64,000 nt of DNA from Siphonodentalium dalli (Eukaryota; Mollusca; Scaphopoda; Gadilida; Siphonodentaliidae), in NCBI GenBank assembly GCA_032622095.1, contig CP136064.1, positions 177,212,247-177,276,246 on the forward strand, written 5' to 3'. The notes under the pieces were generated by a model that made no database searches, was not told where the DNA came from, and saw nothing but the letters and a program-made list of their open reading frames with translations. Positions 13,547 through 36,725 of this stretch are shown one piece after another; the stretch's first letter is position 1; every line of letters begins with the position of its first letter. The position numbers and the translations under genes were made by a program.

Positions 13547-13786
13547 CTATGCCACCAAACTCTTTATAGATACGAAACTCTGATTAAATTCATGGAAAGC
13601 AAATCCAAACAAATGGTCTATTGTCTTGAACCAGGGAGTGGATGCATGCGGGTCTTCTGTTGGATACTGACACAATTCAACAGTTTGTGTTTCAGCATCT
13701 CCGACGATTAAAGAACCTGTGGATTTCACTGTCTTGATGAGGAATGATGTTATAATCCATTTTGGTGATATCTTCTTGGTTTGTTG
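13547..13786 (-). pseudogene. 3' part of a decayed gene interrupted by the palindrome
   Basis: Minus-strand reading gives coding-like sequence in more than one frame, for example GSLIVGDAETQTVELCQYP within a frame that stops at 13547. Continuing upstream across the palindrome to its other side (16343-16460) again gives protein-like minus-strand sequence (MPVFRCDHFEAQAGGFDG). Joining the flanks at the shared 11 bp TTGGTTTGTTG leaves one frame running across the junction, though that frame has stops of its own on each side. I infer that the palindrome landed in an already degenerate or later decayed gene. The family is not recognised. Confidence 0.4.
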
Positions 13787-13938
13787 ATAAGCCCCCTGTT
13801 TGGGGCCATTTCAGGAACGATAACTCTATCCGAAGTACATTACCTATATTCTCTGCAGTACTCCAGTTGGTGTTAGTCTAGACAGTTTGACCTGTATTCT
13901 CCGCCCACGCGTCGGTTTATTTGTATACCGGTTGGGCA

Positions 13939-14150
13939 TGTCCAAAAAATTTCAAAAACTTAAAAAATTTCAAAAATTAAAAAAATTTCAAAAACTTAAA
14001 AAATTTCAAAAATTTCAAAAACTTCAAAAATTCAAAAAAATTCAAAAAAATTCAAAAAATTCAAAAACTTAAAAAATTTCAAAAACTTAAAAAATTTCAC
14101 AAATTTCACAAATTTCACAAATTTCAAAAAAATTCAAAAATTAAACAAAA
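13939..14150 (+). repeat. Minisatellite of TTTCAAAAACTTAAAAAA-like units (left arm)
   Basis: Tandem units of about 8-18 bases built from TTCAAAAA/TTAAAAAA. The mirror array lies at 16016-16185 in the right arm. Unequal lengths show the array has changed since the arms became identical. Open frames across it, with lysine/phenylalanine repeats, are by-products. Confidence 0.85.
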
Positions 14151-14300
14151 TTCAGGATTTAGTCAAAAATATGGCTTGTTGCCATTCATCGGAAAGCTAT
14201 GGGGGTACGGTGGTGAGCGCCACCGAAAAAAGCAAGTGAGTGAGGGAAAAAAGAGAAAAATAACATGACAAGTGGTACATACTACAATTTATGATATTAA

Positions 14301-14496
14301 CTATTCACTGTCACTTTCGTCCGAATTGTCATCACTTTCGTCAGATGTGTCATTTTTTTCGTCCATGAACTTTTCTAGCAATGGTCTGTACTGAAATTTT
14401 CACTGCATCACGATCTTCAAAACCATTCTTCATATATTTGTACACTTTATCCACCGATCTTTCAATAGCCTTCGAAAATTTAGGTAAATTACTCAT
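14301..14496 (-). pseudogene. Left-arm copy of small acidic-tailed ORF (frameshifted)
   Basis: Mirror copy of the intact ORF at 15656-15859. It has lost 8 bases in the middle (about 14386-14394), so the frame breaks: it is 196 bases long against 204 in the right arm. All other positions agree closely. The damage happened after the two arms were last made identical. Confidence 0.7.
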
Positions 14497-14587
14497 TTTA
14501 GTTCAGTGAATATGTCGTTTGGAGTTTCCTTATTAACTTTTCCAATGTTTGTCTTCTTCGCTCTTCCTCCTTTTATCTCTTTAACTT

Positions 14588-14803
14588 TTATCTTCTTAGC
14601 TCCGGGTTTGGAGTTTCCTTTTTAACTTTTCCAATGTTTGTCTTCTTCGCTCTTCCTCCTTTTATCTCTTTAACTTTTATCTTCTTAGCTCCGGGTTTCC
14701 TTATAAGTTTTTCAGGTTTCGCTTCAGTCTTGGGTAGGTCCTTCGAGTCATCGTAGGGTACATATTTATTAAGATCAAAGTCATAATAGTACGGAGTCCC
14801 CAT
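14588..14803 (-). CDS. Left-arm copy of lysine-rich ORF B
   Basis: Same 71-codon frame as 15349-15564, starting MGTPYYYDFDLNKYVP and continuing as a strongly basic K/G-rich tail. Like the right copy, it runs out of its original frame at the second copy of an 89 bp tandem duplication and stops at once. One residue differs (R for S at about residue 36). No known family is recognised. Confidence 0.5.
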   Translation of the reverse strand: MGTPYYYDFDLNKYVPYDDSKDLPKTEAKPEKLIRKPGAKKIKVKEIKGGRAKKTNIGKVKKETPNPELRR

Positions 14804-14940
14804 TCCATCTAAAGTTCAAAGTGTACTCTGAAGTAGTAATTTTTATAGGCGCCAAATTACCATCCAAGACGTATACCCTTATAAACTGCGGGTCAGTCCT
14901 AGTAACGCGCACGTCAACGCCGCCGCCGGCGGCAGAGTAT

Positions 14941-14971
<31 letters not shown>

Positions 14972-15050
14972 CTGCGGCTGTTGTTGTTGTAGTTGTTGTT
15001 GTTGTTGATACAAATGTCAATGCAATTATGAGTGATTTCAATATGCACAC
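14781..15050 (-). CDS. Left-arm copy of ORF A (no ATG)
   Basis: Mirror of ORF A in the right arm, reading outward from the palindrome centre. It has a hydrophobic start (CILKSLIIALTF), then a long Thr/Ala low-complexity tract longer than in the right arm, then the conserved block DPQFIRVYVLDGNLAPIKIT. No ATG precedes the hydrophobic part, so the 5' end may have been lost at the centre. It overlaps ORF B by 23 bases. Confidence 0.45.
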
Positions 15051-15069
15051 TATTGTATAGGTAAAAAAT

Positions 15070-15110
15070 TGGCGCGCGGCCCCCTCACCCCCTCACTGCC
15101 GCGGCGCCAA
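15070..15110. other. Centre of the palindrome
   Basis: Both arms end in the same AT-rich block (AGGTAAAAAATTGGCGC and its complement GCGCCAATTTTTTACCT), joined by a C-rich non-palindromic spacer of about 25 bases. This looks like two copies of one terminus joined head to head, with the spacer preventing a perfect cruciform tip. Confidence 0.7.
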
Positions 15111-15371
15111 TTTTTTACCTATACAATAGTGTGCATATTGAAATCACTCATAATTGCATTGACATTTGTATCAACAACAACAACAACAGCCGCCGCCGCC
15201 CGCCGCCGCCGCCCGCCGCCCGCCGCCGGCGGCGTTGGCGTGCGCGTTACTAAGACTGACCCGCAGTTTATAAGGGTATACGTCTTGGATGGAAATTTGG
15301 CGCCTATAAAAATTACTACTTCAGAGTACACTTTGAACTTTAGCCGGAATGGGGACTCCGTACTATTATGA
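15109..15371 (+). CDS. ORF A: hydrophobic start, Thr/Ala-Arg/Pro tract, conserved tail
   Basis: An open frame runs from the palindrome centre to TGA at 15369-15371. The first 20 residues are hydrophobic (CILKSLIIALTF) and could be a signal or anchor segment. A low-complexity tract follows, encoded by CAA/CAG and GCC repeats. The last 40 residues (DPQFIRVYVLDGNLAPIKIT onward) match the left arm. There is no ATG upstream in frame, so this is either 5'-truncated at the centre or not translated as drawn. It overlaps ORF B by 23 bases. Family unknown. Confidence 0.45.
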
Positions 15372-15564
15372 CTTTGATCTTAATAAATATGTACCCTACG
15401 ATGACTCGAAGGACCTACCCAAGACTGAAGCGAAACCTGAAAAACTTATAAGTAAACCCGGAGCTAAGAAGATAAAAGTTAAAGAGATAAAAGGAGGAAG
15501 AGCGAAGAAGACAAACATTGGAAAAGTTAAAAAGGAAACTCCAAACCCGGAGCTAAGAAGATAA
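15349..15564 (+). CDS. ORF B: small lysine-rich protein, frame broken by duplication
   Basis: ATG at 15349, 71 codons, acidic-aromatic head followed by a very basic tail (KKIKVKEIKGGRAKK). An 89 bp block (15457-15545) is repeated immediately (15546-15634). Because 89 is not a multiple of three, the frame ends a few codons into the second copy. Read without the extra copy, B would end at a TGA that overlaps the ATG of ORF C in an ATGA arrangement. That compact packing is unusual for nuclear genes and more typical of viruses or virus-like mobile elements. A nucleic-acid-binding role is only a guess from charge. Confidence 0.5.
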   Translation: MGTPYYYDFDLNKYVPYDDSKDLPKTEAKPEKLISKPGAKKIKVKEIKGGRAKKTNIGKVKKETPNPELRR

Positions 15565-15634
15565 AAGTTAAAGAGATAAAAGGAGGAAGAGCGAAGAAGA
15601 CAAACATTGGAAAAGTTAAAAAGGAAACTCCAAA
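15457..15634 (+). repeat. 89 bp tandem duplication within ORF B
   Basis: CCCGGAGCTAAGAAGATAAA starts at 15457 and again at 15546, and the two 89-base units are essentially identical. The same duplication is present in the left arm (about 14520-14695), so it predates the palindrome or was copied between arms. Confidence 0.9.
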
Positions 15635-15655
15635 CGACATATTCACTGAACTAAA

Positions 15656-15859
15656 ATGAGTAATTTACCTAAATTTTCGAAGGCTATTGAAAGGTCGGTG
15701 GATAAAGTGTACAAATATATGAAGAATGGTTTTGAAGATCGTGATGCAGTGAAAATGTCAATATTAAAGTACGGACCATTGCTAGAAAAGTTCATGGACG
15801 AAAAAAATGACACAGCTGACGAAAGTGATGACAATTCGGACGAAAGTGACAGTGAATAG
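15656..15859 (+). CDS. ORF C: 67-residue acidic-tailed protein, intact
   Basis: ATG at 15656, stop TAG at 15857-15859. A mixed-charge first half (SKAIERSVDKVYKYM, likely helical) is followed by a very acidic end rich in D, E and S. It lies directly after ORF B; its ATG overlaps the TGA that B would use without the 89 bp duplication. The right-arm copy is intact while the left is frameshifted. The family is not recognised. Small size, tight spacing and charge recall virus-like elements, but there is no homology evidence. Confidence 0.5.
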   Translation: MSNLPKFSKAIERSVDKVYKYMKNGFEDRDAVKMSILKYGPLLEKFMDEKNDTADESDDNSDESDSE

Positions 15860-16015
15860 TTAATATCATAAATTGTAGTATGTACCACTTGTGATGTTAT
15901 TTTTCTCTTTTTTCCCTCACTCACTTGCTTTTTTCGGTGGCGCTCACCACCGTACCCCCATAGCTTTCCGATGAATGGCAACAAGCCATATTTTTGACTA
16001 AATCCGGAATTTTGT

Positions 16016-16185
16016 TTAATTTTTGAAGTTTTTTGAAATTTGTGAAATTTGTGAAATTTTTGAAGTTTTTGAAGTTTTTGAAATTTTTGAAGTTTTTGAA
16101 GTTTTTGAAATTTTTTGAAATTTTTGAAATTTTTGAAGTTTTTGAAATTTTTGATTTTTTTTGAAATTTTTGAAGTTTTTGGACA
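16016..16185 (-). repeat. Mirror minisatellite (right arm)
   Basis: Inverted counterpart of 13939-14150, built from TTTTTGAAATTTTTGAAG units. It is shorter than the left array. Confidence 0.85.
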
Positions 16186-16342
16186 TGCTCAACCGGTATA
16201 CAAATAAACCGACGCGTGGGCGGAGAATATAGGTCAAACTGTCTAGACTAACACCAACTGGATTACTGCAGAGAATATAGGTAATGTACTTCGGATAGAG
16301 TTATCGTTCCTGAAATGGCCCCAAACAGGGGGCTTATCATCA

Positions 16343-16460
16343 TTGGTTTGTTGTTTAATTGCAAACGTTCATTTGGATGATGTAAAATTCCATTGTCGAT
16401 TGCATTGCCCCATCGAAGCCGCCAGCCTGTGCCTCAAAATGGTCACATCTGAAGACAGGC
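16343..16460 (-). pseudogene. 5' part of the gene interrupted by the palindrome
   Basis: Minus-strand reading gives a coherent stretch with MPVFRCDHFEAQAGGFDG and a following segment up to a stop close to the palindrome. On that strand an acceptor-like CTGTCTTCAG lies at about 16450-16459. With the segment at 13547-13786 this is the presumed insertion target. Product unknown. Confidence 0.35.
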
Positions 16461-16547: not shown

Positions 16548-16645
16548 TATAAAGACGTGGCCATGAGAAGAAAGTCGCGGCCACGAGAATATAAAGTCGT
16601 GGCCACGTGAATATGAAGTCGTGGTCACGAGAAGAAAGTCGTTGT
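16548..16645 (+). repeat. Tandem CGTGGCCACG minisatellite
   Basis: Four imperfect units of roughly 20-28 bases, each with AAGTCGTGGCCACGAGAA or a variant. The CGTGGCCACG core is itself a palindrome. No gene is associated. Confidence 0.8.
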
Positions 16646-21164: not shown

Positions 21165-22159
21165 ACCTTTGGATACGAAGTCAAATTGGTCACATTGTGT
21201 ACCCCTTGTGCCAATATATTGCCTTTCTCTGTACACCCTTTATAGTCGTTCAATATGTTTGTATACGTGGGGTCTCTATACTGCATGGTTGGGCGTTCTC
21301 CAAATGTGGTCTTACCATCCCTTTGTACATTTTTCCAAGTGTATCCTCATCTAAATATGTTGATGCCTGTTGATGTCCCCCATAACTGATTGCCCATTAT
21401 CAAAACAAAATTATGCAACCTGGACTGGAGTTGCATCAGGAATCTCAAACTACCCTATGATTTTGAAACTTATAATGGGGAAACAATATTTGATTCCGGC
21501 TAACTCAAATTTCAAGAGTGCACGAAAGAGTGCAGGGCTTCTTTTTTTTTTACATATTTGATCTAAATATTTAGAAAATTAAGTAGTCTTATACACGCCT
21601 CACCATACATCACATTTAAATGTTTCTGGCGAACAAAAACGTCCCACTGTGCAATCGTTTATAAACCACTTATTCTCCGAAGACCAAACTCTGCTTCTCG
21701 GAAGTTATTTCTGAAAGTTTATCACCTGTGTCCAAACAAAGATGGATCCCAAGAGTTCAGAAATATATTACTCGATTACTTTTTTAGATTTTGGTGTATT
21801 TTTGAAACACAAGCAGGGTCCTTGCGTGGACTAATTCAAACTGGCAGCTTCAGACACTAGTCACACTACAAACATACTGACGCTATCAACGATTCACTCG
21901 ATAGTTGGGCAAAAAGGGTCGACATCTTATTAAATGGTGTATCATACATGTAGGTGTGCGCAAGCCTAATTCTAAGAGAACAATCGGGTATCGCTGCTTT
22001 CAACAACTGGGAGCTATATTTACTTTAATAGCTCAAAATCTAGAGGCTGTTCAACTAATGATTCCCCGAATAATCCAACGATCATTCCACCAATCGCTTC
22101 TTTGATTCGCCGATAGTCTGCATATATCGCAACTCTATTACTCTAAATGGCGAAATTCC
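21165..22159. other. No recognised feature
   Basis: Unassigned AT-rich DNA. It contains short frames (21169-21354, 21370-21561, 21905-22105) without recognisable motifs. Confidence 0.3.
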
Positions 22160-24820
22160 GGCCGTGTGAGTAAATCGGCGCCACGATTAGATCTATTGCC
22201 TTTGGTCTACAGTTTGGTCGATCAACATCCCAACATGTTGTGAGGCCGGGGGTTGGGCGTGTTGGGAATTAGTCTTTTCATGTTTTGCCCAACTGTACAT
22301 ATATTAGACTCCTTTGACAACAATTATTATGCTCTATGTGCCTGCATATGCATGGCTTGTATTAGACTCCTTTGAAAACAATTATGTTCTATGTGTGTGC
22401 GTATGCATGGCTTACTATAGCCCTGGGTGGTTTACTCTAGTCAGCGGTGTACCAACCATTGCTAAAACATCCTTCAACCGAGGGCTAATTTTAGAACTAT
22501 GGTGAAGTGGCAGCTTACCAACGTTTACCATGTTTTGCGGTAGAAATGTTACTATGCTGAAGATCTTCTATATACTAACTGAACTATAGTTTTACTATGT
22601 GGCGTGTATATTATATATAGTGTTGTGGCACTATCTTGCAGACCGCATGAAGCAACTCTTGCCATTTTTGACGATTAATTGATTTGATTGATTGATTTTT
22701 TATTTGTACAATAACAAATGAGATAACAACACACGTATGAACGTTGGTTGTCTTCCTGCTGCCACTGAATGCTATATAAACATAAGGATGGCGATATATT
22801 CAAGGTTCCATTCCTCTAGATAGTAATTACGGCACCAATATATATAATAAAGTCTATTTCTGGGAAGGCCACTAGCTTTGTGGCGCTAAATAGTTTACTA
22901 TAAGCAGAGTCGACACAATTCCATAGGTTATAACATTATCCAAAAAAATTTGTTCTGTCAATTTAATTGTCCCTCAAGTATTCCACTAAATAACATTAGA
23001 GCATAATCCCATTGTTGCAATCGTTCCCTGATTTTTGGTAAAGCACACCAATTCCCAAGGCTGGCGAAGTAATAGATCACTGATTATCCCATTGCTAGGC
23101 ACACGCAACTCATAACAGACAAATCGCGCGGACGCTTCAAAGTGGGACCAGTCCGTGTTGTTTCGGACATATTTATTCACATTCATCGGCGATCAGTTCA
23201 TGTTAATCACGTTGTTGGCGTATTATCCCATTGTTAGGCACACGCAACTCATAGCAGACAAATAGAGCGGACGCTTCAAAGTGGGACCAGTCCGTGTTGT
23301 TTCGAACATATCTATTCACATTCATCGGCGATCAGTTCATGCTAATCACGTTGATGGGCGTGGCTAATCGGCTATTGTGTCCAATCGCGGCCAGCGCACG
23401 GATTGTGCGTCGTGGTCAAAACACGCTCAACGGCACATTTCCAGTTGATTGAATTATGTGGGATCAATTGTGCTCTTAGTCGGTCAGAGCACGCGAATAG
23501 TTCTTTACCAGAATAAATCTCGTCTTCGATTGATTCTAGTAAAGAACAATTCTTGTGCTCTAACCATTACTTAATTCTAATTCTAGACTTGACTGATTAT
23601 TTTTCCAAACGCAAACGTGTGTTATGCATTATGGTGCTTATCGAGCAATTAATATACGAACAGCGGTCATAAAAGTAATTGTCTGATGTTATGTGACCAA
23701 ACGTTTACATGATATGCAGCAGGTAGATGTGAAAGGAGGATAAGATATAAATAAAAGTTTAATATTGTTATATCATCTGCAATAAATGCACGAAAACCCC
23801 ATTCAAATACGATATGATGGAATGTTCGAAAAGTTCATGCTAAAACAAAGGTTCACACTGCTTATGTGCATGTTGTTTCGGTGCACTCAAAGAAAGAATG
23901 GAAAAGTGCATGCTGGAAAAAAGTTGATGATTAAACATGCTAGCAATAGATGCATGATAAATAATAGTACATGCGTGTTAATGATGTTACCATAACAATA
24001 ATATAACTACTGCCAGTACTATCCCCATGTGGGCCCGGTGAAGAATAAGTCTACCACCCACTGCGATGGGTAAGAATTCCCCAACGTTGCCCCTGTGTGG
24101 TGTATGAGTCGTGGCTGCACTAAGGCGACTGTGTGGCGTGAGACATCGACCTGTGGGTACGACATATAGCTCCCTGTTCACTTCGATCATATATTTCTTC
24201 CAAGACGGGTGGTTGAAATGACCCGGCTCAGTCAATCGGCTGTAGCCTCTTATGTGTTTCAGATCAAATTTTTGAATTTGTTGTATTGTTGTTTTCTCTT
24301 GTTTGCAGTGTTGTTTCTTCTTGATTCGTGTATTTTGTTTCTGTCGTCGTATGTTTCTTTGCATTTCGTCTTGATCCCTGTGGGCAGACCCTGTTTGTCG
24401 TGATGTGTGGTGTAGGAGTCGTGGTAGTACTAAGGCAACTGTATCACGTGAGACATCGACCTGTGGGTACGACTTATAGTTCCCTGTTCACTTCGATCCT
24501 ATGTCTCTTCCATGACGGGTGGTTGAAATGACCCGGCTCAGTCAATCGGCTATAGCCTCTTCTGTGTTTCATATCAAATTGTTGAATATGTTGTATTGTT
24601 TTTTTCTGTCTCTAGTTTGCAGTGCTGTTTCTTCTTGAATCTTGTATTTTATTTCTGTTGTCGTATGTTTCTTTTCCTCTCGTCTTGATTGTTGAATCGA
24701 GTATGTTGTTCACACATGATTCACTGTAAATGTAGTCCAAGTCTTCTTGTACTAAAACCAGCTAAGATATTGGGATGGCGATTTGCTGTTTTTAGTCCAA
24801 GCCCGCTTGCATACCAATCC
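22160..24820 (+). repeat. 2,661 bp tandem duplication, unit 1
   Basis: The unit starts GGCCGTGTGAGTAAATCGGC and ends at CATACCAATCC. It is followed directly by unit 2, with only a handful of substitutions between them (for example near 22373, 22670, 23264, 23549, 24303). It holds internal smaller repeats: a 68 bp tandem near 22305-22420, a 137 bp tandem near 23085-23360, and two diverged copies of a 300 bp block (24100-24400, 24405-24700). The open frames in it, including a 125-codon minus-strand frame at 23987-24364, have no recognised domain. Confidence 0.95.
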
Positions 24821-27481
24821 GGCCGTGTGAGTAAATCGGCGCCACGATTAGATCTATTGCCTTTGGTCTACAGTTTGGTCGATCAACATCCCAACATGTT
24901 GTGAGGCCGGGGGTTGGGCGTGTTGGGAATTAGTCTTTTCATGTTTTGCCCAACTGTACATATATTAGACTCCTTTGACAACAATTATTATGCTCTATGT
25001 GCCTGCATATGCATGGCTTGTATTAGACTCCTTTGACAACAATTATGTTCTATGTGTGTGCGTATGCATGGCTTACTATAGCCCTGGGTGGTTTACTCTA
25101 GTCAGCGGTGTACCAACCATTGCTAAAACATCCTTCAACCGAGGGCTAATTTTAGAACTATGGTGAAGTGGCAGCTTACCAACGTTTACCATGTTTTGCG
25201 GTAGAAATGTTACTATGCTGAAGATCTTCTATATACTAACTGAACTATAGTTTTACTATGTGGCGTGTATATTATATATAGTGTTGTGGCACTATCTTGC
25301 AGACCGCATGAAGCAACTCTTGCCATTATTGACGATTAATTGATTTGATTGATTGATTTTTTATTTGTACAATAACAAATGAGATAACAACACACGTATG
25401 AACGTTGGTTGTCTTCCTGCTGCCACTGAATGCTATATAAACATAAGGATGGCGATATATTCAAGGTTCCATTCCTCTAGATAGTAATTACGGCACCAAT
25501 ATATATAATAAAGTCTATTTCTGGGAAGGCCACTAGCTTTGTGGCGCTAAATAGTTTACTATAAGCAGAGTCGACACAATTCCATAGGTTATAACATTAT
25601 CCAAAAAAATTTGTTCTGTCAATTTAATTGTCCCTCAAGTATTCCACTAAATAACATTAGAGCATAATCCCATTGTTGCAATCGTTCCCTGATTTTTGGT
25701 AAAGCACACCAATTCCCAAGGCTGGCGAAGTAATAGATCACTGATTATCCCATTGCTAGGCACACGCAACTCATAACAGACAAATCGCGCGGACGCTTCA
25801 AAGTGGGACCAGTCCGTGTTGTTTCGGACATATTTATTCACATTCATCGGCGATCAGTTCATGTTAATCACGTTGTTGGCGTATTATCCCATTGTTAGGC
25901 ACACGCAACTCATAGCAGACAAATCGAGCGGACGCTTCAAAGTGGGACCAGTCCGTGTTGTTTCGAACATATCTATTCACATTCATCGGCGATCAGTTCA
26001 TGCTAATCACGTTGATGGGCGTGGCTAATCGGCTATTGTGTCCAATCGCGGCCAGCGCACGGATTGTGCGTCGTGGTCAAAACACGCTCAACGGCACATT
26101 TCCAGTTGATTGAATTATGTGGGATCAATTGTGCTCTTAGTCGGTCAGAGCACGCGAATAGTTCTTTACCAGAATAAATCTCGTCTTCGATTGATTCTAG
26201 TAAAGAACAATTATTGTGCTCTAACCATTACTTAATTCTAATTCTAGACTTGACTGATTATTTTTCCAAACGCAAACGTGTGTTATGCATTATGGTGCTT
26301 ATCGAGCAATTAATATACGAACAGCGGTCATAAAAGTAATTGTCTGATGTTATGTGACCAAACGTTTACATGATATGCAGCAGGTAGATGTGAAAGGAGG
26401 ATAAGATATAAATAAAAGTTTAATATTGTTATATCATCTGCAATAAATGCACGAAAACCCCATTCAAATACGATATGATGGAATGTTCGAAAAGTTCATG
26501 CTAAAACAAAGGTTCACACTGCTTATGTGCATGTTGTTTCGGTGCACTCAAAGAAAGAATGGAAAAGTGCATGCTGGAAAAAAGTTGATGATTAAACATG
26601 CTAGCAATAGATGCATGATAAATAATAGTACATGCGTGTTAATGATGTTACCATAACAATAATATAACTACTGCCAGTACTATCCCCATGTGGGCCCGGT
26701 GAAGAATAAGTCTACCACCCACTGCGATGGGTAAGAATTCCCCAACGTTGCCCCTGTGTGGTGTATGAGTCGTGGCTGCACTAAGGCGACTGTGTGGCGT
26801 GAGACATCGACCTGTGGGTACGACATATAGCTCCCTGTTCACTTCGATCATATATTTCTTCCAAGACGGGTGGTTGAAATGACCCGGCTCAGTCAATCGG
26901 CTGTAGCCTCTTATGTGTTTCAGATCAAATTTTTGAATTTGTTGTATTGTTGTTTTCTCTTGTCTGCAGTGTTGTTTCTTCTTGATTCGTGTATTTTGTT
27001 TCTGTCGTCGTATGTTTCTTTGCATTTCGTCTTGATCCCTGTGGGCAGACCCTGTTTGTCGTGATGTGTGGTGTAGGAGTCGTGGTAGTACTAAGGCAAC
27101 TGTATCACGTGAGACATCGACCTGTGGGTACGACTTATAGTTCCCTGTTCACTTCGATCCTATGTCTCTTCCATGACGGGTGGTTGAAATGACCCGGCTC
27201 AGTCAATCGGCTATAGCCTCTTCTGTGTTTCATATCAAATTGTTGAATATGTTGTATTGTTTTTTTCTGTCTCTAGTTTGCAGTGCTGTTTCTTCTTGAA
27301 TCTTGTATTTTATTTCTGTTGTCGTATGTTTCTTTTCCTCTCGTCTTGATTGTTGAATCGAGTATGTTGTTCACACATGATTCACTGTAAATGTAGTCCA
27401 AGTCTTCTTGTACTAAAACCAGCTAAGATATTGGGATGGCGATTTGCTGTTTTTAGTCCAAGCCCGCTTGCATACCAATCC
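24821..27481 (+). repeat. 2,661 bp tandem duplication, unit 2
   Basis: Same content as unit 1 at an exact offset of 2,661 bases. The TCC trinucleotide stands at both outer boundaries and at the junction, which suggests a microhomology or slippage-type origin. The very low divergence means either a very recent event or an assembly artefact from two haplotypes placed in series. Confidence 0.95.
27387..27470 (+). repeat. Inverted-repeat partner of 28664-28750
   Basis: TAGTCCAAGTCTTCTTGTAC through AGATATTGGGATGG recurs in reverse complement at 28664-28750. The two copies flank about 1.2 kb without a recognised gene. The same block also occurs at the end of tandem unit 1. Confidence 0.65.
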
Positions 27482-31667: not shown

Positions 31668-31929
31668 TAGTCCAGGATATATTGGTCGACCTCTGCACCC
31701 CCCCCCAGGACTCAACTTCACCCCACTAATTTTCTTCCTTAAGGTATCCTCTAATTTTTTTCACTTGTTAACAAGAAAAAAAAGTGGCCGCAGAGACTCC
31801 AGACAAGATGGCGTCCATTTTTAAAAAATGCACCATGTCTCTTTGATGGCCGTTATAGTAAAGATGATATCACATGCGGTCTTGTTTTCCGCTCGATTCG
31901 TTATGCTAATATACAACCCTTACAAATTA

Positions 31930-33000
31930 ACCAAAAATCCGACACCAGAATCCAATATGGCGGCCAAGATGGCCGCCGAAATGTGAAAATATGCTATTTT
32001 TCTGACATGTTACCACCTTTCGTTTGTCTCTGTGGGAAAATGTTGGCATTTTTGCGCCATGGTATACATTTATCATATAGAGGAGTCATTTGCGACCACA
32101 TGGGGACCATAATATACATTCATTACGGGATATTTTTATCCGATATCACGTTTTCCCAAATGCCGGTATAATAGGTCAAAGCCGAATCTACGTTAATAAC
32201 GCGATGTAATGTTTCGAATCAATGAATGTTATTGCTATTATAACAACACCCATGCATATATATGTGCAGGAGATACTCGAGCTAGGATTCATCTTATGCC
32301 TGAGTTGAGGAATATTTACCCAAATCCAAGATGGCGGCCAAAATGGCCACCAGAAATAAAACATCGCCGATTTTAACATCAGTGAGCATTATTGTCATGA
32401 AAACTCCACACCTGCTTACTATTGTGAGTTGGGAACACTTAGGCGAAGAACTTTCCTTGTATCATATCCAAATAAAAGTACCCCAAATCCAAAATGGCGC
32501 CCACAATGGCGGACATATTTTGAAAAATCACCGAAATTCCCTCATATTCACATCATTGGGCATTATTGTCGAGACAACTCACCCATGCTCACAGTTGAGT
32601 TGAAAATACTGAAGTGAAGTAATTACCTTACATCTCATGCAAGAAATTGATTTCCAAATCGTAGATGGCGTCCAAAATGGCGACCGAAATTTGAAAACAA
32701 GTCTACATTCCTTTACTTTCTTACGATGGGCGTTATTGTTTCGCGATTTCTATCCACCATTACATGTTGATATGGAATAGTGACATGAAGTATTCATTAG
32801 GGTTTGGCAATTGATACTCACAGCCAAGATCGCTGCTAAATTGGCGGCTATAAATTGAAAAGAAATCGATATTTTCACATATTAATTTCAACTTTTTGTC
32901 ATAGTATCGGTATGTATGGACGAAACTGTACATACACCATCTACTAGTTCAACTTGAATGTATCAAAACACATAACATAGCTCGTATCCTTCTGGAAAGA
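31930..33000 (+). repeat. Subterminal array with AAGATGGCSGCC cores (left arm)
   Basis: Diverged units of about 150-180 bases, each with a core such as GCCAAGATGGCCGCC (31964), CCAAGATGGCGGCC (32326), CCAAAATGGCGCCC (32490) and GTAGATGGCGTCC (32661), followed by a GGGCATTATTGTC-type phrase. The mirror array lies at about 35480-36470. Confidence 0.75.
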
Positions 33001-33051
33001 TGAAAACCACAATTAATATCGCGATGTGGCATTTCGAAATCCATTCTCCAC

Positions 33052-34150
33052 TTAGCGCCGATAATGGCCGTAAGCGTAGGTGCGCCGAATAGTTATATCA
33101 GAACAATTACCTGATAACAGATTCTGATTTGCCACGTCACGTCCATAATTATCTGGACCAGCTTCCATTTCTTTGTCTGATAAATTTAGGTAGCTCACAC
33201 CGACAAAGTATTCACCACTTCCTGGGAGTAGGGTCCCTCTAATCATAACGTTTCAAACAATACATTTTCCGGTGTCTAGCTTACGATTTTAAATATTTGC
33301 TAAATATGATATTTGTGCGTCATCTTGAACCATGAAGGCATATGACCGATGAGTATACAAGCTTACAGAAGGTCATCGCTCTGTATGTGTCTCATACCCC
33401 ATGGGGATAACGACATGTACACCTGGCGAACCAGCTAGCTAGTCACTTCTCAATAGAAGGTTCGTCAACTCACAAACGCAGCGAACGTATTGGCATGTGT
33501 GGACAACTTCGACAGTGTTTCGAAGGTTGTTAGCTGTCTCATTCCCTTGAACAGATGTCTATCTGCTAAGGAGAAGACCATAGTGTACAGACGACCCACA
33601 CTTCTTGACCATGATCCGAAGCAAACTGTGTGACGCCCCGCATTTGTCTCATCGAATATCTCCCAGCAGAGAGGAACAATGGTCGTGGTGCTAGTTTATG
33701 GACATGCACCATGATAGCGGGAATGAAATGGGCCACGGTATACACCACCCCTACACCTGGTGCATGTTTAAGATATAGAATGTCATGCATGTCGGTTTTA
33801 TTTGGTGTGGTAAGATTGTATTTCCACATCCGTTTCGAAGCCTTTCTGATTCAACTACGTACATTTTTGTCTGGATAATACTATGCTAGCCTCCCTAAAA
33901 ACAGTCGGATGGACTGAATGATAATGTCTTTATAGCATGAATGTATGCGTTTATTGTTATCCTCTCTCAGGGTTAGTGTCAGTATGTTGGCGGTATTATT
34001 CAAGAAAATGTCAGGAACTGTGGTGCATTTATTTCACTATGTATTTAAAGAACAATTTACAGTCTCGATGGCAATGGCAATGGCTGTGGACGTTGGGGAA
34101 CGCGACCTTTATGGTCATATAGCTGTATATATATAACTTTAGAATATAGC
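33052..34150 (-). pseudogene. Diverged coding-like copy in the left inner arm
   Basis: Minus-strand frames include 33566-33829 (87 codons, with TDMHDILYLKHAPGVGVVY) and 33052-33246 (64 codons, with SGEYFVGVSYLNLSDKEMEA, running to a donor-like CAGGTAATTG). They align, codon order preserved but with indels, to the plus-strand copy at 34165-35290. An LKH...G block and an (A)LWSS block sit in both copies in the same order. The reading direction is from the centre outward. It appears broken into several frames, and the family is not recognised. Confidence 0.45.
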
Positions 34151-34164
34151 AGTTAATGTCTCAT

Positions 34165-35290
34165 GCAGGAAAATGTTCGCAATGGTGATGTTACCAAGAA
34201 ATCACTTGGTGTACCAACGTTTGTTGAACTGAATGCAAGGGCTCATCAACGTAACATTCCTCTGGATGTTCTTCGCGTTGAACATTTCACCCTTTTGTTG
34301 ATGGCATTTGTACTTTCTTGAACCATACCACCCAGCGTGAGTATGACATATCAACCAACTATCAAAGGTATCGCCTTTAAGACTACACTCCAGTCTTGGT
34401 GGGGCTTATACAGCAGTAGCCAATGGCACAAGCCTGGTCCAGCTATTTAAGAACGGCTTCCAAACGGATGGGAACATACAATCTTAGCATAGAAGGGAAG
34501 CAAAGCCACACATGAGATCCTGTCTGAATCTAAAACATAACAAAATAAGGGGCGGTGCAGTCATGGTCCAATTTCATTTCCACTATCATGACACATACCC
34601 ACAAACTAGCATCGTGTGTATTGTTATCATCTGCAGCATGACGTGCTTGGATCTGTTCGGTGAGACGATTGCTGGACGCCAACAAGCTTGTTCTTATAAT
34701 CATGTTCAAGGAGATTGGGTATATTATGCATTATGGTCTTCTACGCCTTAGCAGAAATGCATCCGTCAAATGTCGGGCTTTCAACATTCGAAGCCATATT
34801 CAGAAGTTGTCCGGATACGTCAGTGCATTAGATGAGTATGCGAATTGATGAACCATATATTGGGAAGTGGCTGTTTGGGAAGATCACCAGGTGTACACGT
34901 TGTTATCCCCATTGGGTCACCAGAGCTGACAATACGCAGATATATAGGTCCTTCTGAAAGCTAGTATACGCATCGACCGAATACCTTTCTAGTGTATCGC
35001 ACAATATTACGCCTATACCCCATATGTAGCATCTGAATTATACCATAAGCTATACCACGAATGAAGCTCGCTAAGAATTCCAAGCTTTCGAAACAAACAC
35101 GTGAGCTGTACACCGGCATATGTATTGTTTGAAACATTGCGATTAGTGGCACCCTTCTACAAAGAAGTGTAGTAAACTGTTGTTGTGAGTGAGATAGATT
35201 AATCTGACGAAGAGACGGAAACGGGTCTAGATAATGCTGAATGTGGCAATTCAGAATAAGCTCAGGTACTGTTGTTTTGATTCTTGGAAG
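34165..35290 (+). pseudogene. Diverged coding-like copy in the right inner arm
   Basis: Begins near the centre with a protein-like run (GVPTFVELNARAHQRNIPL, about 34210) and continues in shifting frames, through YYALWSSTP (34722) and SPGVHVVIPIGSPELTIRR (about 34885), to the exon-like block opposite 33052-33246. It has several frameshifts and stops. It is a paralogue or older copy of the left-arm sequence, not a recent mirror. Confidence 0.45.
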
Positions 35291-36725
35291 TCATAATATG
35301 ACTATTCGGCGCACCTATATACGGTTACGGCCAGTATGAGCCCTTAGTGGAGAATGGATTTTGAAATGCCACATCCCGATTGTGGGTTTTCATCATTCCA
35401 AAAGGCTACGACTTATATTGGAACTAATATATGGCTTATATTATGTACCGTTTCGTCTATACAAATCGATATTATGACAAAAAGTTGAAATTAGTATGTG
35501 ATAATATCGGCGTCTTTTCAATTTCTGGCCGCCAGTTTGCCCGCCATATTGACTGTGATTATCACTTGCCAAACCCTAATGAATAATTCATACATATCAA
35601 CATGTAATGGTGGGTAGAAATCGCGAAACAATAACGCCCATCATAAGAAAGTAAAGGAATGTAAGCGTATTTTCAAATTTCGGTCGCCATTTTGGCCGCC
35701 ATCTTCGATTTGGAAAACCATTTCTTGCTTGAGATGTAAGGTAATTACTTCAACTCAGTATTTCCAACTCAACTGTACGCATGGGTGGGGTTGTCTCGAC
35801 AAACATGCCCAATGATGTGAATATGAGGGAATTTCGGTGATTTTTCAAAATATGTCCGCCATTGTGGGCGCCATTTTGGATTTGGGGTACGTTTATTTGG
35901 ATATGGTACAAGGAAAGTTCCTCGCCTAAGTGTTCCCAACTCACAATAGTAAGCAGGTGTGGAGTTTTCATGACAATAATGCTCACTGATGTTAAAATCG
36001 GCGATTTTCGGCAATTTTTTATTTCTGGTGGCCATTTTGGCCGCCATCTTGGAAATGGGTAAATATTCCTCAACTCATGTATAAGAGGAATCATAGCTCG
36101 AGTATCTCCTGCAAATATATATGCATGGGTGTTGTTATAATAGCAATAACATTCATTGATTCGAAACATTACATCGCGTTATTAACGTAGATTCGGCTTT
36201 GACCTATTATACCGGCATTTGGGAAAACGTGATATCGGACTAAAATATCCCGTAATGAATGTATATTATCGTCCCCATGTGGTCGAAAATGACTCCTCTA
36301 TATGATAAATGTATAACATGACGTAAAGATGCCAACATTTTCCCACAGAGACAAACGAAAGGTGATAACATGTCAGAAAAATAGCATATTTTCACATTTC
36401 GGCGGCCATCTTGGCCGCCATATTGGATTCTGGTGTCGGATTTTTGGTTAATTTGTAAGGGTTGTATATTAGCATAACGAATCGAGCGGAAAACAAGACC
36501 GCATGTGATATCATCTTTACTATAACGAGGATCAAAGAGACATGGTGCATTTAAAATAAATGGCCGCCATGATGGACGCCATATTGTCTGGAGTCTCTGC
36601 GGCCACTTTTTTTTCTTGTTAACAAGTGAAAAATATTAGAGGAGACCTTAAGGAAGAAAATTAGTGGGGTGAAGTTGAGTCCTGGGGGGGGGGGGTGCAG
36701 AGGTCGACCAATATCTCCTGGACTA

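Follow-up and report, generated by a model that had tools for sequence, protein, structure and literature searches.

A palindromic mobile family with a Bcl-2 gene in Siphonodentalium dalli, possibly a satellite of Polinton-type elements

The scaphopod mollusc Siphonodentalium dalli carries a multi-copy family of palindromic mobile elements, one worn and decayed copy of which lies at positions 13782–16342 of the stretch analysed here, 64,000 nucleotides of contig CP136064.1 (positions 177,212,247–177,276,246 of assembly GCA_032622095.1), hereafter the window. Members of the family have equal tips, target-site duplications, a mirror structure (in some copies a complete one) with a central hairpin, genes that read outward and arms that change together, and the family has spread recently. 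It is proposed, with roughly even confidence, that these are linear elements dependent on a helper: one arm would be copied around a hairpin, and the product would be inserted by an integrase of the Polinton type. The element may work like a satellite of Polintons, and is filed here neither as a Polinton nor as a Mutator foldback element.

An original prediction, made from the letters of the window, had suggested searching the assembly for single-arm copies; the family occurs on nine contigs as separate copies with other flanks. In the genome searched (2.23 Gb, nine contigs), the window arm matched at least 122 pieces on all nine contigs, a lower bound because just 40 of 3900 candidates were scored. 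Twenty places were fetched first and others later, and 13 elements, the window copy included, are bounded, with both tips within the fetched stretch (L010, L012 and L013 allow a second tip pairing, and one was used). The tip TGATGATA is found at 25 of the 26 ends of these elements. An exact 6-base-pair (bp) target-site duplication flanks ten of the 13, and five of the six bases agree in L020. Duplications of 6 bp are typical of Polinton integrases. Bounded copies reach 5.9 kb. The inverted-match fraction, 1.00 in the window copy, is 0.92–0.96 in L011, L012 and L013, and several copies hold a middle part outside the mirror.

The copy L070 forms a palindrome of 5773 bp, with 98.8% self-identity and the flanking duplication GCGATA. 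It represents a related subtype, which the window arm matches in pieces only (the longest 245 bp at 95%), and which shares the tip, the centre hairpin and a Bcl-2 gene with the window family; open reading frame (ORF) B of the window copy, described below, was not found in L070. A 770-bp piece of L070 returned at least 69 rows (40 of 193 candidates scored), most of them matching at 99–100%, and this near-identity argues for recent spread.

In the window, BLAST of the full length against its own reverse complement confirmed an inverted repeat of 2561 bp at 13782–16342. The palindrome originally predicted is therefore real, and 'near-perfect' was too strong a description of it, as the arms are 91.7% identical when gaps are counted (BLAST) and approximately 98% identical outside simple repeats. 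When the 9-bp array and the triplet repeats are set aside, 17 of 989 columns differ between the arms, summed over six segments. The left tip (13782–13789, plus strand) reads TGTTGATA, one base off the family sequence and the sole exception among the 26 bounded tips, and the right tip (16335–16342, minus strand) reads TGATGATA. The junctions, TTGGTT followed by TGTTGATA on the left and TATCATCA followed by TTGGTT on the right, match the pattern of the sister copies, with the target-site duplication at 13776–13781 and 16343–16348. The 11-bp direct repeat noted originally does stand on both sides (13776–13786 and 16343–16353), and a shared word of this length is found in only 4 of 20,000 random flank pairs. 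It consists of the 6-bp duplication plus five chance bases, because the five right-flank bases after TTGGTT happen to equal the mutated left tip. An initial leaning towards a Mutator foldback element, based on the 11-bp repeat, was abandoned when sister copies showed a 6-bp duplication. A foldback sequencing artefact is an unlikely origin of the palindrome, given the differences between the window arms and the existence of separate copies in other surroundings.

The arms meet at a GC-rich hairpin (15061–15118 in the window), whose unpaired loop of 17 bases spans 15081–15097. None of 200 shuffles was equally stable. This kind of GC-rich hairpin, bordered by runs of A and T, was recovered from 11 of the 31 sequences searched, namely the window copy and ten other loci (L007, L008, L009, L015, L016, L017, L018, L070, L071 and L072); a further match in L071 is unrelated, and the remaining 20 sequences may include some that stop short of a centre. 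The centre of L070 has a folding energy of −35.2 kcal/mol (mean of shuffles, −12.9), and the arms of this copy reach the hairpin directly, with no middle domain. The loop of the hairpin is asymmetric, which is what copying around a hairpin end would leave. The earlier suggestion of a linear element with an end-to-end joint at one terminus agrees well with this shared joint and with arms that are mirrored within elements.

The two arms of an element have changed together. Between the two arms of L070, 7 of 2872 columns differ (6 and 9 in other alignments), and between the two of L072, 18 of 2720, whereas 117–132 of about 2740 columns differ when an arm of L070 is compared with one of L072. In gap-free columns of these full-length palindromes, 113 sites are mirrored within each of these two elements yet different between them, 19 sites are private to one arm, and no arm difference is common to both elements. 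Across 39 copies of the arm region, arms differ on average by 0.0097 within a locus (19 pairs) and by 0.0302 between loci (722 pairs). Similarly, the two tips of one element lie within an edit distance of 2 in 10 of 13 elements, whereas tips of different elements are separated by a mean of 12.2 (minimum 0); in this comparison, the right end of L020 and the left end of L018 were set a few bases off. The window copy also carries a private 89-bp duplication in both arms, as two units each at 14517–14694 and 15454–15631, and none of 39 units at 23 other loci is in tandem. The arms of an element have thus been made together, either by copying from one arm in each cycle or by very efficient gene conversion.

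Longer copies reveal the gene content of an arm. Outward from the centre, L013 carries an ORF of the Bcl-2 family (199 amino acids on one side, shorter on the other), a zinc-finger/polyglutamine (polyQ) frame that ends in the tail recognised as ORF A in the window, then ORFs B and C, the 9-bp array and the tip. The zinc-finger/polyQ frame opens with a C2H2-like zinc finger, which scores below the Pfam cut-off, and continues through polyQ into the ORF A tail. The Bcl-2 ORF of L011 matches Pfam Bcl-2 with an E-value of 1.6e-15 (57.9 bits versus a cut-off of 31.4) and a Bcl-xL chain in the PDB at 5.5e-10. A genome search with the Bcl-2 sequence gave at least 152 matches (150 of 221 candidates scored), and among 89 near full-length rows, neighbours within 3 kb are arranged head-to-head in 23 cases, tail-to-tail in none and on the same strand in one. 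Very long open frames accompany two of the Bcl-2 matches; the one retrieved proved to be a run of withheld letters and was set aside. To our knowledge, a Bcl-2 gene within both arms of a near-identical family is unusual, even if the element is of the foldback type. A degenerate Bcl-2 relative (43%) lies at L073:1322–3070 beside a 242-amino-acid ORF, and is perhaps an older relative of the element or of a helper; the 242-amino-acid ORF was considered as a polymerase-B N-terminus for its likeness to such sequences and rejected, having no match in Pfam or viral contigs. In addition, a lustrin-type cysteine-rich ORF occurs twice in L010 (3611–3868 and 6686–6943), each time beside an element end.

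Among ORFs chosen from L010–L013, L070 and L071, Pfam detected no polymerase, capsid, integrase or ATPase gene. No match to a Mutator-type transposase was obtained in the selected ORFs of the sampled copies (Pfam), and no convincing transposase of any kind was found in the ORFs scanned. In L070, where 7 of 15 listed ORFs were scanned, Bcl-2 is the sole Pfam match at an E-value of 0.01 or below.

The following cycle is proposed, in which we infer the hairpin form, the helper and the role of Bcl-2. The extrachromosomal form would be a linear, one-arm DNA with a hairpin-closed inner end and an open end at the TGATGATA tip. Synthesis around the closed end would produce a head-to-head palindrome whose two tips are identical, and an rve-type integrase would insert this palindrome, leaving a 6-bp duplication. 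Polymerase and integrase would both be supplied by a helper, most likely of the Polinton/Maverick kind that is present in the genome. Other systems of this sort use protein priming by jumping back, a mechanism for which the tandem TGA triplet of the tip would be suitable. The Bcl-2 protein would keep the host cell alive during replication. A further-reaching and distinctly tentative proposal is that the family is a new kind of satellite: its genome would be one hairpin-closed, gene-bearing arm, integrated as a palindrome, which borrows the polymerase and integrase of a Polinton-type virus and holds off cell death with a Bcl-2 of its own.

Polymerase-B searches of the genome, in which 69 of 1596 candidates were scored, gave at least 149 matches; most lie in open frames of about 952 or 1312 amino acids. 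One Polinton, represented by L060, L061 and L063, encodes polymerase B, an IVa2-like ATPase and an rve integrase (the integrase in L061). Its ends form a 732-bp inverted match at 99.6%, with the tips AGTAGTATT and the duplication GAGCTG, as read by eye. Loci L030–L065 include two many-copy groups of Polinton-type polymerase B in long open frames, which suggests recent Polinton activity. A 48-bp stretch at L060:842–889 is common, at up to 94%, to family arms and a site upstream of the Polinton, and it has an inverted 22-bp partner at 1904–1925.

Several observations weigh against a hairpin-copied element served by a Polinton helper. The sole Polinton with both ends read has the tip AGTAGTATT, which differs from the family tip TGATGATA; a helper with the family tip was not found, ends having been read in this one Polinton. 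Furthermore, neither Polinton group matches the family in the pieces compared, save for the 48-bp stretch and one of 22–24 bp. L017 and L018 have no duplication and unequal tips. The inverted-match fraction falls to 0.48–0.84 in L010 (inner pairing), L015, L017, L018, L019, L020 and L022, and is 0.57 for the outer tip pairing of L010. The mate from its own locus is among the nearest sequences of an arm in just 14 of 26 cases. One zinc-finger/polyQ frame has a sub-threshold resemblance to the transposase domain DDE_Tnp_1_6 (13.9 bits versus a cut-off of 25.1; E-value 0.066). Finally, variation in Bcl-2 looks neutral, with 14 synonymous and 48 non-synonymous differences where 81% non-synonymous would be expected, and gives no sign of selection on the gene.

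The main rival, possible though rather unlikely, is a DNA transposon of the foldback type whose inverted repeats are very long. It would move as double-stranded DNA through a transposase leaving 6-bp duplications; gene conversion would equalise its arms, and its Bcl-2 and zinc-finger genes would have been captured. Such an origin would accommodate the copies with a middle part outside the mirror, and gene conversion could have placed one 89-bp duplication in both arms and mirrored the 113 sites. With 113 mirrored sites and no shared arm difference, however, that conversion would need to be very efficient, and the arms of L070 run to the hairpin without a middle domain. The foldback elements Tm1 and Tetris share long inverted repeats with internal tandem arrays, and the window copy has arrays as well; their reported duplications are of 8–10 bp, against 6 bp here.

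Decay is evident in the ORFs of the window copy, from which the Bcl-2 gene and the zinc finger are absent. ORF A (14781–15050, minus strand; 15129–15371, plus strand) is the tail of the zinc-finger/polyQ frame as seen in L013, together with a low-complexity part, and lacks an ATG. ORF B (14588–14803, minus strand; 15349–15564, plus strand) is basic and is reduced to 71 amino acids by the 89-bp duplication in both arms. ORF C is open in the right arm (15656–15859, plus strand; 67 amino acids with an acidic tail), and its left counterpart (14301–14496, minus strand) is broken by an 8-bp deletion. Accordingly, the three outward-reading ORFs first described in both arms hold for the right arm, the left C being frame-shifted, and the set is intact in neither arm. 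The reported 23-base overlap of A and B was correct, with A ending at 15371 and B starting at 15349. A TATA-box-like TATAAAA follows GGCGCC in each arm (14841–14847, minus strand; 15305–15311, plus strand); the TATA-like site (GGCGCCTATAAAA) precedes the start of ORF B, and 23 other loci together hold 32 occurrences of the motif GCGCCTATA.AAA.

Coding evidence within the window alone is mixed. ORF length is at chance level, as the remaining 61.3 kb of the window hold 60 ATG-initiated ORFs of at least 67 amino acids, though only 45 of 2000 shuffled strands contained two ORFs of at least 66 amino acids. For the codon-position signal, 9 of 112 background ORFs reach the value of B and 5 of 112 that of C. 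The first-position purine share of B and C, 0.75, is reached by none of the 112, on a strand that is purine-rich. The codon signal is thus suggestive but weak. ORF C was compared in 41 copies from the window and 23 loci, 24 sources in all: frame-shifting gaps are absent from 36 copies, two of which contain an in-frame stop. The predicted fold of ORF C is two helices, with a predicted local distance difference test score (pLDDT) of 72 and a predicted template modelling score (pTM) of 0.32.

An integrated small virus or virus segment, of parvovirus-like or adintovirus-like kind, with its replication genes on another segment or lost, is improbable. The Bcl-2 homologue, the TATA-like sites after GGCGCC, the compact outward genes and the hairpin centre would all suit such an origin, and Bcl-2 genes are also carried by some DNA viruses. 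The virus nature originally proposed nevertheless found no proof: the ORFs scanned include no capsid, polymerase, integrase or other replication gene, and B, C and Bcl-2 have no convincing relative in viral contigs. Profile searches of the window ORFs against Pfam, PHROGs, NCBIfam and the PDB likewise gave no convincing match. A model of ORF C matched no viral model at an E-value of 0.001 or below, and ORF C has no confirmed relative in the genome contigs database. Exact patterns for the tip, centre and TATA site had no match in viral contigs, a plasmid search gave none, and a phage search gave short matches only (best E-value 0.06 among the matches listed, 20 of 60 records). One viral-contig match, L001, was taken for chance; it sits within a 2234-amino-acid frame. 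A host-kept inverted-repeat locus serving as a source of hairpin RNA, and hence small RNA, is highly improbable: judged from the structure, a transcript through the centre could pair with itself along its full length, but the occurrence of target duplications at various sites, together with near-identical copies across many contigs, indicates transposition and not one fixed locus.

Further repeats occur within and around the window copy. The subterminal 15-mer ACCTRTATTCTCYGC is present twice per arm, at 13842 and 13890 (13842–13904, plus strand) and at 16220 and 16268 (16220–16282, minus strand), with no other mismatch-free occurrence in the window. Arrays of a 9-bp unit lie at 13944–14152 in the left arm and 16018–16181 in the right arm. 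The sequence TTACCTATA occurs four times in the window, against 0.56 expected, each near an inner or outer arm end. To the right of the element, a 22-bp GTCGTGGCCACGAG-like unit forms a short tandem array (16548–16642). Elsewhere in the window are a 2.66-kb tandem duplication (22157–27481, 99.8% identical) and a second long inverted repeat (31668–33285 and 35100–36725, 86% identical), at the ends of which no shared word of seven or more bases was found.

If the proposed cycle is correct, the family would be a palindromic satellite of a Polinton-type virus that inserts in number and carries a regulator of apoptosis. It would link foldback transposons, hairpin-ended linear DNA and virus satellites, and would offer a young system for one-arm copying. 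A literature search on titles and abstract openings gave no description of the element or of Bcl-2 cargo, and a prior publication may exist.

Polintons/Mavericks, together with adintoviruses, share 6-bp duplications and terminal inverted repeats with the family, and a member with polymerase B and an rve integrase is present in this genome. Genes for a polymerase, integrase, ATPase or capsid, by contrast, were not detected among the family ORFs scanned. The tip of the one Polinton with both ends read is AGTAGTATT, against TGATGATA in the family, whose bounded copies do not exceed 5.9 kb and vary in how far they are palindromic. Among protein-primed linear DNAs, adenovirus defectives and yeast killer linear plasmids form head-to-head palindromes from one genome end by snap-back copying. 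Those palindromes are derivatives of a replicating genome, whereas the present family is integrated genome-wide and has its own gene set. Parvoviruses have a palindromic, GC-rich terminus, as here, and form head-to-head dimers during replication; unlike them, the family has no NS1 or capsid gene in the ORFs scanned. Tm1 (PMC3169594) is described as a foldback element with long inverted repeats, internal tandem arrays and 8–10 bp duplications as in Tetris, the two repeats of one element being 93% identical on average, and Tetris (PMC4079207) as having long inverted repeats with internal tandem arrays and complete copies without conserved ORFs; the Mutator element Muta1 is given duplications of 8–9 bp. 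Relative to these accounts of Tm1 and Tetris, the S. dalli family has the same long inverted repeats and internal tandem arrays, and is set apart by its 6-bp duplications and by gene-bearing arms that meet at a shared hairpin.

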